Source of the DNA: Roseovarius sp.
GTDB lineage: Bacteria > Pseudomonadota > Alphaproteobacteria > Rhodobacterales > Rhodobacteraceae
Length of the DNA: 64,000 bases
Direction: 5' to 3'
Assembly: GCA_027493545.1 (NCBI GenBank)
Contig: JAOSKR010000002.1
Coordinates: 1-64,000, forward strand
In this document: positions 30,433 to 38,399 of the stretch, piece after piece
Layout: each line of letters starts with the position of its first letter
Numbering within the stretch: position 1 is the first letter of the stretch
Notes under the pieces: generated by a model
What the model saw: the letters and a program-made list of their open reading frames with translations, nothing else
What the model was told of the DNA's origin: nothing
The model's database searches: none
Translations under genes and position numbers: made by a program

Positions 30433-31921
30433 GTGGACTTGTATCGCAAGGTTCGTCTGGCTTGTGCGGAAGGTATGAGCCAGCGAGAAGCGGCGCGGCA
30501 TTTCAACATCTCGCGTGACAGCGTCCGCAAGATGATGGCGTTCTCGGTACCGCCCGGGTATCGGCGGACGGCGCCGGTGAAGCGGCCGAAGCTGGATGCC
30601 TTTACTGGCATTATCGACAGCTGGCTGGACGGCGATCGGGAGGTCCATCGCAAGCAGCGCCATACGGCGAAGCGGGTGTTCGAGCGGCTTCGTGACGAAC
30701 ATGGGTTCACCGGCGGCTACACGATTGTGAAGGATTACATGCGGCAGCGTGAACGGCGCGGTCGCGAGATGTTCGTGCCGCTGGCGCATGCGCCCGGACA
30801 CGCTCAGGCCGATTTCGGTGAGGCGGTGGTTGTCATCGGCGGTGTCGAGCAGAAGGCGCACTTCTTCGTCATGGATCTGCCGCACAGTGATGCCTGCTTT
30901 GTGCGGGCCTATCCCGCAGCGACAGCGGAGGCCCGGGTCGACGGTCACGTCCACGCCTTCACGTTTTTCGGCAAGGTGCCTACGTCGGTCCTATACGACA
31001 ACGACCGCTGTCTGGTTGCGAAGATCCTGCCGGATGGAACGCGCAAGCGGGCGACGCTCTTCAGCGGGTTCCTGTCGCATTACCTGTTCCGCGATCGTTA
31101 CGGACGGCCGGGCAAGGGCAACGACAAGGGCAACGTGGAAGGCCTGGTCGGCTATTCCCGCCGCAACTTCATGGTGCCGATCCCGCGGTTTGCGTCCTGG
31201 GACGCGTTCAACGCCTACTTGGAGGATCAATGCCGCAAGCGCCGGGCGGATATCCTGCGGGGCCAGTCCGAGACCATCGGAGACCGGCTCGCGCGGGATC
31301 TGGCCACGATGACCGACCTGCCGGCCGCGCCGTTCGATGTCTGCGATCAGGCCACCGGACGGGTCAGTTCCCAGGCGCTGGTGCGCTACGAGACCAATGA
31401 TTACTCGGTGCCGGTCTCCTACGGCCACCGTGACGTCTGGATCAGGGGGCTATGTCGACGTGGTCGTGATCGGCTGCGGCGGCGAGGTGATCGCACGCCA
31501 TCCCCGCTGCTACGACCGTGAGGACATGGTCTTCGATCCGGTGCATTACCTTCCGCTGATCGAGCGCAAGATCAATGCCCTGGATCAGGCGGCGCCCCCG
31601 GCTGAATGGGACCTGCCGCCGGAGTTCGCGACCCTGCGCCGCCTGATGGAGGCGCGGATGATCAAGGCCGGACGCCGCGAGTATGTCCAGGTTCTGCGCC
31701 TGCTGGAGACCTTCGACATCGACGACCTGCACGCGGCGGTGAAGAAGGCCCTGCAGCTGGGCGCGGTCGGCTTCGATGCCGTCAAGCACCTCGTCCTCTG
31801 TCACGTCGAGAAACGGCCGCCGAAATTGGATCTCGATGTCTACCCATACCTGCCACGGGCGAACGTCGAGACCACATCCGCGGCCAGCTATATGGCCCTG
31901 ATGTCGGAGGATGCAGCATGA
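30433..31921 (+). CDS. istA: IS21-family transposase IstA, apparent frameshift near 31445 in a G run
   Basis: MSQREAARHFNISRDSVRKMM; HAQADFGEA; PTSVLYDNDR; C-terminus in ORF 31337..31921. Confidence 0.87.
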
Positions 31922-32680
31922 CCGTCGCCCCGAAGATCCTGCTCGCGGATCATCTCAAGACGCTGAAGTTACCCACCTTCCTGCGGGAATACGACAAGCT
32001 TGCCCGCCAATGCGCCACCGAGGGTCGGGATCACGTCCAGTTCTGGCGCGCCTCGTCGAACTGGAACTGATCGACCGAGAGCGCAGGATGATTGAGCGGC
32101 GTATAAAGGCCGCGAAGTTCCCGGCCGCCAAGAGCCGGACAGCTTCGACTTCAAGGCGATTCCAAAGCTGAACAAGATGCAGGTGCTGGAACTGGCCCGC
32201 TGCGAATGGATCGACCGGCGCGAGAACGTCATCGCCTTGGGGCCCAGTGGAACCGGCAAGACCCATGTTGCCCTGGGTCTCGGGCTGGCCGCATGCCAGA
32301 AGGGCATGGCGGTCAGCTTCACCACCGCTGCGACGCTGGTCAACGAGATGATGGAGGCCCGCGATGAACGCCGCCTGCTCCGCCTGCAAAAGCAGCTGGC
32401 CAGCGTCAAATTGCTGATCATCGACGAACTGGGCTTCGTGCCGCTATCCAAGACCGGCGCCGAGCTCTTGTTCGAACTGATCTCGCAGCGCTATGAGCGT
32501 GGCTCCACGATGATCACGAGCAACCTGCCATTCGACGAATGGACCGAAACCTTCGGCACTGAACGCCTGACTGGCGCGCTGCTCGACAGGCTGACACACC
32601 ACGTCAACATCCTCGAGATGAACGGAGACAGCTATCGGCTCGGCCAAAGCCGCGCCCGAAAAGCCGAAGCCTCAACCTAA
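31918..32680 (+). CDS. istB: IS21-family helper ATPase IstB, apparent frameshifts near 32050 and 32130
   Basis: GPSGTGKTHVALGLGLAACQKG Walker A, LLIIDELGFVPL Walker B. Confidence 0.88.
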
Positions 32681-34597: not shown

Positions 34598-35061
34598 GGG
34601 GTTTCGTGGCCCCGATGTTCTTTCCGATCGAAATCACCCGCGCCGACGCCGCCGGAGCGACTCGTCAACGGATGACCACGCCGTCACGCCTGACCCCGCC
34701 CGCCCCGGCCCCCGAACCGGACCCTTGCGTCAGGGTAAACAGGCCCCGGATCGCGCCCGGGGCGGGCGGGCTTTGAGGCGTTTGCGGACGGACGGCCCAA
34801 CCTCAGATGCCGTGGGCACAGCCGGCGGATGCCAGCCCCTTTGCGGACGGTCAGCGTGAACCCCGCATCCAGTGGTACAACCGTCATGGAGGGTGGGAGG
34901 CGGTCGTTCGTTGCGCTCTGCACTTGTGGAAGCTATGCGCAGGGAGCTGACGCTGTAAAGTTGCGGACTGCGGTCGCCTTTCAGAACCTGATCGGCTCTT
35001 GGCGAAGTTCAGGGTTCATTGTGCAAGTCAACAAGGCATTGTTCCAAACACTGACAACCTG

Positions 35062-35070
35062 TGCTAGACT
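35062..35070 (+). promoter_or_regulatory. possible extended -10 promoter element upstream of the retron candidate
   Basis: TGcTAGACT; predicted start about 7 nt downstream, at 35077. Confidence 0.3.
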
Positions 35071-35076
35071 CAATAA

Positions 35077-35160
35077 CGGAGCAGCTTGACGACAAGGTTA
35101 AAGGTGCGAGTCGCATCTGCCTATTACGGTACCACTTGCTACGTGTGTCTTGCTGCTCCG
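35077..35160 (+). ncRNA. candidate retron-type ncRNA (msr/msd-like) bounded by a 9-bp inverted repeat
   Basis: cggagcagc (35077-35085) and gctgctccg (35152-35160) are exact reverse complements; a2 ends 14 nt before the RT ATG; internal hairpin aggtgcg-agt-cgcatct at 35102-35118. Confidence 0.35.
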
Positions 35161-35174
35161 CCTAAGAGATTAAA

Positions 35175-36938
35175 ATGGCATTTGATTACGATTTACGACG
35201 TATAAAGACAAAAGATCAGCTTCTCACCTATATTGGATTAGAGGAGTACTTTTTCGACAAAGCGCTGGACTTCAGCATCACTGAGTATGAAGCGCGTATG
35301 GCCGAATACTCAAATGAAACGGAAGTCGGCAGCCTGTACCTACCTCTGTTTTGGAAGCACGAAATCCCCAAGCGTAATCCGAAGCGTGGCAAACGGGTTG
35401 TCTGGGAGGCCAACAGTCACATCAACAATACCCTAAAAGGCCTCGCCAGACGCCTCACATTGTTTTTTGGGACTGTTATTCCCGACTTCCCGCATCCGCA
35501 AAACTGCGGCTATGTTCGAGGCCGCAATATTAGGGAAAACGCTCAATTCCACGTTGGCGCGAGGTACCTTCTGAAAGCTGATATTGAAGACTACTTCCCC
35601 TCGATATCCTTTGAACGCATTAGCAACTTCTTCGAAAATCTAGGCGTGAATGCTGTTATTGCGCGGCAGATTTCTAATTTCCTGTGCATCGATGAAAAGC
35701 TACCTCTTGGCCTCCCGACTAGTCCGATCATTGCAAATGCGATTAGTCACCTGATGGACTTTGATCTCAGCAGCTTGGCCGAAACACATGGTGCCGTTTA
35801 TAGCCGATATGCTGACGACCTGACGTTCTCATCCAATGACACCCTGCCTTCGGAAGATGATATTTCAAAAGTCGTCGAACACCACGGCTTTGTGCTGGCA
35901 GCGGACAAAACGCGACACAGCAAACGAGGCCAAAATCACTACGTAACGGGTTTGAGCGTGTCAGAATCTGACGCGCCCCATGCACCTCGAAAAATGAAGC
36001 GCAGCTTGAGGCAAGAGCTCCATTTTTCGAAGAAATATGGCTTAGACGATCATCTAGACCACCTAGGGCTTCAAGATCAATTCGAGCGACAAAGCTATAT
36101 CAACCATCTCGACGGGCGCGTAAAATACATCGGGTTTCACGAGCCTCATTTGGCTTCCAAGATTGTCCCGCTATGGCAAGACATCTTGGGAAAAAGCGGT
36201 GAAGCACCAAGCTTCAAGCCCAAAAACCAACACCGAATGCCCTTTCAATTCTACGTGGATGAAACCGAATTCACCCTAGATGGCGTGAACTACCTCGCGC
36301 TTGGAATGAGCGCCAGTCAGCATCAAGATCACCTAAACGATACGACCAAAAACCTGTGGGAAAACTACTTGGCGAACCCGTGGTCAGATGGTGACCGCGA
36401 CCAAATCTTCGCCAAAGGCATGCACTTCACAGATACGACTGAGGATTTGCGGCGCGCCTATCTATCCGCACTCCAACCCCTGCCATTCAATGGCTACATT
36501 GTCTTTGGCAAGCTCACATTAGACTATCAAGAAACCTACCTAACCCTGCTCAATTTCATTCTCAGGCGGCGCTTAATGGCTGCCGAAAGCCAAGCGGCGT
36601 ATTTCCATTTTGAACAAACGAGCAAGGTTTCAAAAGATGCCCTCATAAAAACAGTAGATGCCGTATGGAAAGAACTACGCCACGAAAATAATAGGCGTCC
36701 AGACTATGTCATCACCGAGATCGTCGATAAGAAGTACTTTGGCATTGCCGTCCCGGATTTCATGCTGGCCGTTTTCCGTAGGTATCTAACTGCGAACCCG
36801 TCCGAAAAGGACTATCGTCGAAGAGCCAATATGTTCGAGATGCTACGGGACAAAGTCCGACTCATTGTGAACGCAGATACTGGCGAAGAATTCGGTCGCC
36901 GAAACCCGCTCGTTAATCCGGATATTGAAAACTTGTAG
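35175..36938 (+). CDS. retron-type reverse transcriptase fused to a C-terminal DUF3800-like domain
   Basis: 587 aa: GYVRGRNIRENAQFHVG (NAxxH), LKADIEDYFPSI, LPLGLPTSPIIANAI, YSRYADDLTFSS, NHYVTGLSVSE (VTG). C-terminal FYVDETEFTLDGVNYLALGMSAS...DYVITEIVDKKYFGIAVPDFMLAVFRRYL resembles DUF3800. Confidence 0.88.
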   Translation: MAFDYDLRRIKTKDQLLTYIGLEEYFFDKALDFSITEYEARMAEYSNETEVGSLYLPLFWKHEIPKRNPKRGKRVVWEANSHINNTLKGLARRLTLFFGTVIPDFPHPQNCGYVRGRNIRENAQFHVGARYLLKADIEDYFPSISFERISNFFENLGVNAVIARQISNFLCIDEKLPLGLPTSPIIANAISHLMDFDLSSLAETHGAVYSRYADDLTFSSNDTLPSEDDISKVVEHHGFVLAADKTRHSKRGQNHYVTGLSVSESDAPHAPRKMKRSLRQELHFSKKYGLDDHLDHLGLQDQFERQSYINHLDGRVKYIGFHEPHLASKIVPLWQDILGKSGEAPSFKPKNQHRMPFQFYVDETEFTLDGVNYLALGMSASQHQDHLNDTTKNLWENYLANPWSDGDRDQIFAKGMHFTDTTEDLRRAYLSALQPLPFNGYIVFGKLTLDYQETYLTLLNFILRRRLMAAESQAAYFHFEQTSKVSKDALIKTVDAVWKELRHENNRRPDYVITEIVDKKYFGIAVPDFMLAVFRRYLTANPSEKDYRRRANMFEMLRDKVRLIVNADTGEEFGRRNPLVNPDIENL

Positions 36939-37189
36939 GTAGCCCGCAAAGCCATTTACGGGCCTGCCACGTGGCGAACTCGGGGGCAGAGGCCGCGGCG
37001 ATAGCTCCCGCGTCAGCTTTGGGCTGTGACCACTCATCCTCTGCGCACCTTGTGAAGGTTCAGTTTGGGCCGGTCGCACCCAGGCAACCGGCCACCAGTT
37101 TGCAACTTTGCGCCGCCCCCTTCCTGCACATCGCCACCGCCTCGAAAACCGCACCCCGGGTGCGGTCCCCGCACGCGCTCCGCCCCCAC

Positions 37190-38162
37190 TCAGAGCGTGA
37201 TCACCGTCGAGCCCGTGGTCTCGCGTGCCTCGAGCGCGCGGTGCGCCTCGGCAATCTCCTCGAGCGGCCAGCGCTGGCCGATATTGGCCCTCACCGCGCC
37301 GCTCTGCATCTTCTCGAACAGGTGCCGCGCCATCGCCCGGCAGCGGTCGTGATCGGCGAGAAAGGTGAAGAGCGTGGTGCGCGTGAGCTTGAGCGAGCCC
37401 TTGGCGGCAAGCGTCAGCAGGCTCACCGGTTCGACCGGGCCCGAGGCGTTGCCGAACGAGATCATCATGCCGAGCGGCTTGAGGCAGTCGAGCGAAGCGT
37501 CAAAGTGTCCTTGCCGACCCCGTCCATCACCGCGTCGACGCCCGCGCCGCCGGTGATCGCCTTTACCTCGGGCACGAAATCGGTTTCGCGGTAGTTGATG
37601 CAATGGGCGGCGCCGTGCTCGCGCGCCAGCGCGCATTTGGCGTCCGTCCCCGCCGTGCCGATCAGCTCGATCCCTTCCGATCTCGCCCACTGGCAGGCGA
37701 TCAGCCCGACCCCGCCGGCGGCGGCGTGAAAGAGCACGCTGTCGCCCTTTTCGAGCGGCCAGACGCGGTGAAAGAGGTATTCCACCGTCATCCCCTGCAG
37801 CATCATCGCCGCCGCGTCCTCGTACGAGATCGCGTCGGGCAGGGGGCAGACCTGGGCGGCCGGCATGACGCGGGCCTCCGCATAGGCGCCGGGGGCATGG
37901 CGGCATAGGCCGCGCGGTCACCCTCCTTGAGGTGCGTGACACCCTTGCCCACCGCCTCGACCATGCCGGCGGCCTCCATCCCCAGCGCGTGCGGCATCGT
38001 CAGCGGATAAAGCCCGGTGCGCTGGTAGACGTCGATGAAGTTGAGCCCGACGGCGTGGTGGCGGATGCGGATCTCGCCCGGACCGGGATCGCCGATCTCG
38101 CGGTCGACGAGTTTCAGGGCTTCGGGCCCGCCGTGTTTCTCGATGATGATTGTGCGTGACAT
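37190..38162 (-). CDS. quinone oxidoreductase (zeta-crystallin type), apparent frameshifts near 37495 and 37890
   Basis: GGPEALKLVDREIGDPGPGEIRIRHHAVGLNFIDVYQRTGLYP; SVLFHAAAGGVGLIACQWARSEG. Confidence 0.87.
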
Positions 38163-38399
38163 GGGGTGTGCCTCCCGGCTCGATCTGTGGGGTTTGATCC
38201 AATTGATGCACCCGATGCGCGGAGGACTCAACCCGCCCCGCGCTTTCGGTGCCATCGCTCCGGCCGGCGCCGGCGTTTTCCGGCCGCGAGGCGGCGGTGG
38301 AGAATGCGGCCCCGTGGCATTCGGGCGTCCTTGGCTGTCGGAGATGCCGATGCCCGCGATCGCGGCGGCACATATGCCGGCGGGGCGGGCCTGAGGGCA

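Follow-up and report, generated by a model that had tools for sequence, protein, structure and literature searches.

The window, a 64,000-nucleotide stretch of a Roseovarius sp. contig, carries an inserted segment that is flanked by a 2-hydroxyacid dehydrogenase gene (left) and a convergent qor gene (right, minus strand), the same neighbours that had been named in a first-pass annotation of this DNA. The insert holds a gene encoding a reverse transcriptase (RT) fused to a DUF3800-like domain, and a conserved structured RNA lies directly upstream of this gene (Table 1). The 587-aa reading frame of the first-pass annotation is present and runs from the ATG at 35175 to 36938, while position 35062, given there as the start, falls upstream of the gene. 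Upstream of the ATG the frame stays open for just three further codons (590 open codons). The gene is AT-richer than its surroundings, as had been remarked (48.4% GC versus 65.7% for the 64-kb window), and both its reading frame, described earlier as free of frameshifts, and its catalytic residues are intact. The RT-DUF3800 gene is thus real and intact, and it is not a chance ORF, because it gives a full-length 933-bit profile match and has orthologues with the same upstream RNA. A one-gene system had also been proposed; there is indeed a single protein gene, but the upstream RNA had been missed, and the locus consists of one gene plus one RNA.

Table 1. Positions of the retron gene, its domains, the upstream RNA and the inserted segment, in window coordinates
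Feature	Position	Strand	Remarks
RT-DUF3800 fusion gene, 587 aa	35175..36938	+	PADLOC PDLC02958, 1.7e-281, 932.9 bits, residues 1-581
Reverse transcriptase domain	35355..36194	+	~residues 61-340; NAQFH 122-126, YADD 212-215, VTG 257-259
C-terminal DUF3800 / RNase H-like domain	36240..36908	+	residues 356-578; invariant D362, E363, E365, E480, D528
Conserved structured RNA, candidate retron msr-msd, 82 nt	35078..35159	+	seven loci, covariation
a1 inverted repeat, 5' arm of closing helix, GGAGCAGC	35078..35085	+
a2 inverted repeat, 3' arm of closing helix, GCTGCTCC	35152..35159	+	ends 15 nt before ATG
Hairpin AGGTGCG-AGT-CGCATCT, with invariant GCGAGTCGC	35102..35118	+	probable msr recognition hairpin
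Candidate template (msd), at most ~33 nt	35119..35151	+	holds small CAC/GTG hairpin (35133-35145); template role inferred
Candidate branching guanosine	35088	+	alignment column 11; position by analogy with retrons (PMC8989520)
Inserted segment between 2-hydroxyacid dehydrogenase gene and qor	34601..37188		2588 bp, 53% GC
Unit common to Celeribacter halophilus locus	34882..37039		82-88% identity

Comparison of the protein with the PADLOC profiles revealed an end-to-end match to RT-DUF3800_VII-A1, in which residues 1-581 of 587 covered positions 1-574 of 575 (932.9 bits), whereas the runner-up retron RT class, RT_VII-A2, reached 212.6 bits. The best 25 of 70 PADLOC families were all retron RT models, and the models for group II introns and DRT systems scored far lower, in agreement with the initial view that this RT is distinct from those of group II introns. 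Among the NCBIfam models, retron St85 (2.5e-46) and retron Ec67 (1.4e-45) matched but scored below their cut-offs, and the group II intron RT gave 9e-5; the sequence matches in the PDB were mostly retron RTs (Ec86, Ec67 and Ec78). The retron RT hallmarks listed in the first-pass annotation are all found in the protein, as NAQFH, YADD and VTG. In an alignment of seven sequences, N122, A123, H126, Y212, D214, D215 and V257-T258-G259 are invariant; the catalytic box reads YxDD with both aspartates invariant, and a plasmid-borne relative (L009) carries YSDD. The placement of the RT as a retron RT rests on these profile scores and motifs, and the full-length best match upheld the type VII assignment made in the first-pass annotation.

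Judged by its sequence, the locus is a type VII-A1 retron, a type already catalogued (PADLOC PDLC02957/PDLC02958), with which it shares the full-length match, the domain order and the single gene. The protein reads as a further example of this described type, with nothing new in the protein itself. Type VII-A2 (PDLC02953, PDLC02917) is the next best by RT, and its effector is related to that of the window over the full length (1.4e-18). The two types differ in that the RT and DUF3800 of VII-A2 are on separate genes, as is also apparent from the PADLOC model names. No VII-A2 RT was found in the 200 genomes searched, a sample from which absence does not follow.

The resemblance of the C terminus to DUF3800, proposed at the outset, falls below Pfam detection: PF12686 gave no match even at E<=10 to the window protein or to five of its relatives. 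The resemblance held, however, in three other comparisons. First, the PADLOC model for type VII DUF3800 proteins (DUF3800_VII) matched the isolated C-terminal domain with 1.4e-18 over residues 7-228 of 236. Second, hhalign of an alignment of nine C-terminal domains against 24 PF12686-passing proteins gave a probability of 88.6% (E 2.6e-6, 182 columns), against 0.1% for reversed alignments, at most 0.6% for 40 column shuffles and 0.3% for the RT region. Third, an AlphaFold2 model of the domain built from five sequences (pLDDT 81.7, pTM 0.84) had an RNase H-like predicted fold, as had been anticipated, and its top PDB structure matches were RNase HII (E 1.9e-5, probability 1.00, with a modest TM of 0.44). 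A search of PDB sequences with the C-terminal profile returned no match, nor did a genuine DUF3800 protein produce a significant one there; the full-length model from four sequences had a pLDDT of 36.6 and was not interpreted.

A published account of DUF3800 assigns it an RNase H fold that is catalytically rearranged (PMC10910872). The window domain and the PF12686 proteins share the RNase H-like fold, an N-terminal D-E motif and an aspartate in a C-terminal helix; they differ in that the window domain has DETEF in place of DESG and PDF in place of AD. DETEF occupies residues 362-366, and the acidic motif, first read as DxxE, is in fact D-E-x-E; its three acidic residues, E480 and D528 are invariant among the aligned relatives. 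On sequence homology, then, the C terminus is DUF3800-like and is not a PF12686 member under Pfam's gathering rule. Together with the predicted fold, this indicates that it is most likely a divergent DUF3800/RNase H-like domain acting as a metal-dependent nuclease. Such a nuclease might act on DNA, in which case activation of an otherwise retron-like system would degrade phage or host DNA. The RNase H fold includes DNases, and the weaker structural matches comprised integrases, NurA and endonuclease V in addition to de novo designs, RNase H1 and MutS. However, RNase HII provides the two best solved matches and DUF3800 has been linked to RNA (PMC10910872), and while neither point decides the substrate, we consider DNA a somewhat unlikely target.

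Orthologues of the protein were found in Celeribacter halophilus (L002, 88% identity), Phaeobacter (L004, 71%), a further member of the family (L006, 58%), plasmids of Rhizobium and Aminobacter (L009 and L010, 43%) and a member of the same class (L008, 32%). A phage-like contig (L011) carries an orthologue that is missing its 5' end, and a partial copy is present in L003/L007. Type VII-A1 is rare: it was detected in 3 of 397 genomes sampled from the family, the window genome included, and a class-wide sample of 386 contained one further genome.

The upstream RNA was found by aligning the DNA that precedes the ATG, where a block is kept while the surrounding sequence diverges. Its edges are sharp. 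The blastn similarity to the Phaeobacter locus starts at 35078, which is the first base of a1, and the comparison with L006 gave a single alignment (35077-35163, 91%), the gene itself being hardly detectable at the DNA level. The nearer relatives (L002, L004 and L006) preserve the RNA better than the protein, with RNA identities of 91.5-96.3% and identities of 56-88% for the RT and DUF3800 domains. The fold consists of a closing helix formed by a1 and a2 (an 8-bp inverted repeat), the hairpin given in Table 1 and the small CAC-GTG hairpin, and the inner junction is ambiguous, since it can pair either columns 19-21 to 42-44 or columns 19-22 to 53-56.

Across the seven loci, standard pairs occupied 97.6% of the pair cells, compared with 85.0 +/- 1.7 in shuffles (none of 500 was as high), and two-sided changes occurred in 12 of the 24 pairs, compared with 5.3 +/- 1.6 in shuffles, counts that are biased toward this structure because the alignment was fitted to it. 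Sliding the partner along the alignment lowered the pairing to 29-49%. Compensatory changes affect 9 of the 11 pairs of the closing helix and are visible by eye in GGAGCAGC/GCTGCTCC, GGGCGATG/CATCGCCC and GGGGTGGC/GCCACCCC. The evidence for the RNA is therefore covariation and not energy, since a single-sequence fold of the 236-nt upstream region had no unusual stability (z -0.74). A covariance model matched all seven complete VII-A1 loci, which are those used to build it. It gave no match in 80 further loci, the majority being retron-type RTs of other kinds on viral contigs, and in 327 genomes its sole match was the window locus. An Rfam search of the region yielded nothing relevant, and a DNA-level search of plasmids, phages and E. 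coli for the RNA was negative. The compact covarying RNA is absent from Rfam and may be new, provided that neither the original classification of retrons nor the PADLOC covariance models already include it.

Retron RNAs are insulated by a1/a2 repeats and primed from an adjacent guanosine (PMC8989520), and both the position of the RNA and its closing helix fit this pattern. In size it departs from it. Retron RT-DNAs are screened for at 40-180 nt on gels (PMC12548924), a usual trait and no strict criterion, and Retron-Eco2 makes a 67-nt DNA (PMC12405507). With 82 nt in total, it falls well short of the length of described retron RNAs. The stretch of at most 33 nt from the invariant hairpin to a2 lies below the 40-180 nt range if the template is confined there; it may be the smallest template of any retron. 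The msd of retrons is usually variable in sequence. In the VII-A1 loci, however, the template region is conserved, which counts against reading it as a retron msd. Either the RT-DNA is unusually short, or the RNA is partly a scaffold.

The second possibility can be taken further, to a locus that makes no retron-like branched DNA at all. The short RNA would then be a scaffold with a structural or regulatory part, like those of DRT systems, or else an RNA antitoxin, and any DNA synthesis would be repetitive or untemplated, or would need phage as its trigger. Such a role would agree with the mere ~30 nt between hairpin and a2, with a candidate branching guanosine that is G in six of the seven loci and A in L008, with hairpin and template sequences that are kept even among proteins only 32% identical, and with the occurrence of DUF3800 genes beside other structured RNAs (PMC10910872). 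Nevertheless, we regard it as unlikely: an a1/a2-like inverted repeat that closes an RNA directly upstream of the RT is a hallmark of retron RNAs (PMC8989520), and the RT, with its NAxxH and VTG motifs, scores as a retron and not as a DRT enzyme. We tentatively suggest, as a possibility to be held with reserve, that the RNA of VII-A1 retrons is a miniature form not described before (82 nt, with a conserved template of at most 33 nt) that either gives rise to the shortest retron RT-DNA or supports some other chemistry as its scaffold, and that controls the fused RNase H-fold nuclease. The retron type is known, and the miniature RNA is the interesting part of the locus.

For the locus as a whole, we favour as quite probable a type VII-A1 retron in which a short, RNA-primed RT-DNA cages the DUF3800 nuclease until phage infection frees it. 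The sequence itself shows the fusion, the intact RT motifs, the conserved nuclease residues, the covarying RNA, the mobility and the defence genes nearby. The functional steps are argued by analogy with other retrons: binding of the RNA, the site of priming, the length of the RT-DNA, the caging, its trigger, the substrate and the defence itself. The RT domain would bind the 82-nt RNA transcribed just upstream, and priming would probably start from the guanosine beside the closing helix. The stretch from the invariant hairpin to a2 would be copied into a very short RT-DNA (~30 nt) that is retained in the complex, and this nucleoprotein would hold in check the DUF3800 domain, which is predicted to be a two-metal nuclease with an RNase H fold (D362, E480 and D528). 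A phage product that displaces the RT-DNA or the RNA, or that cuts or modifies either of them, would free the nuclease, which would then cut RNA (or DNA) and stop phage growth by abortive infection. The role of the system is thus probably abortive anti-phage defence via a caged nuclease. Retron-Eco2 offers a mechanistic precedent, being a single-gene fusion of an RT and a Toprim domain, whose RNase activity is proposed to be caged by msDNA and freed when a phage nuclease attacks the msDNA (PMC12405507). Both loci have a single-gene RT-nuclease fusion with a retron RNA in front; they differ in that Eco2 has a Toprim and not an RNase H-like domain, and that its RNA is longer and carries a DNA of 67 nt.

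Type VII retrons appear to be little studied, as no paper in the collection that we searched pairs a retron with DUF3800 or with VII-A1. The anatomy of the locus raises two testable questions, namely whether an RNA this short is reverse transcribed and whether the DUF3800 domain is a toxic nuclease. A retron product of 30 nt, if true, would push down the smallest size at which an msDNA is known to work as a sensor, and could supply a compact single-protein tool for making DNA inside cells.

The closest congener examined (G1141) has 36 bp between the dehydrogenase and qor, where the window has 2588 bp. Blastn of the flanks to L128 defined this empty site, with window position 34600 at position 961 and 37189 at position 997. 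The unit common to Celeribacter is, from its sequence, probably a horizontally moved cassette. No integrase was recognised in the insert, and direct repeats of 9-14 bases were looked for at its junctions and not found. The left part of the insert has 71% GC, unlike the retron, and contains a perfect 14-nt GC-rich inverted repeat, CCCGCCCGCCCCGG / CCGGGGCGGGCGGG (34695-34770). The ~100 bp past the stop codon that are common to Celeribacter (36939-37039) include a short CCCG/CGGG stem that lacks a T-run and may be a terminator or mark where the cassette ends.

The qor copy (37189-38165, minus strand) has two 1-nt gaps relative to that of the congener (82% identity), due to pseudogene formation or assembly errors. 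About 2.4 kb upstream of the RNA, IS21-type istA/istB genes (30433-32680, plus strand), identified from the sequence, have both frames broken. The retron gene could likewise be a decayed or silent passenger with no current function, a view to which these broken neighbours and the failure to find a clear sigma-70 promoter upstream lend something; yet the promoter scan was confined to that promoter type, and across genera the ORF, the full set of catalytic residues and the RNA have been kept intact, which makes this very improbable.

The neighbours of the related retrons are the usual company of defence systems. The Rhizobium plasmid locus L009 adjoins a PDC-M41A gene, and L010 a HerA-like gene; resolvase genes, recognised by reading the sequence, stand beside the L004 and L006 retrons. 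On the Aminobacter plasmid (L010, 2160-3749), a Drt8-like RT lies directly upstream of the VII-A1 retron, placing two different defence RTs in tandem. In Phaeobacter (L004, 2016-3374), a UG17 RT occupies the opposite strand ~1.5 kb from the VII-A1 RNA. On the viral contig (L011, 1-4661), the retron adjoins genes that read by eye as phage portal and terminase, which suggests that it is carried by a P2-like phage.
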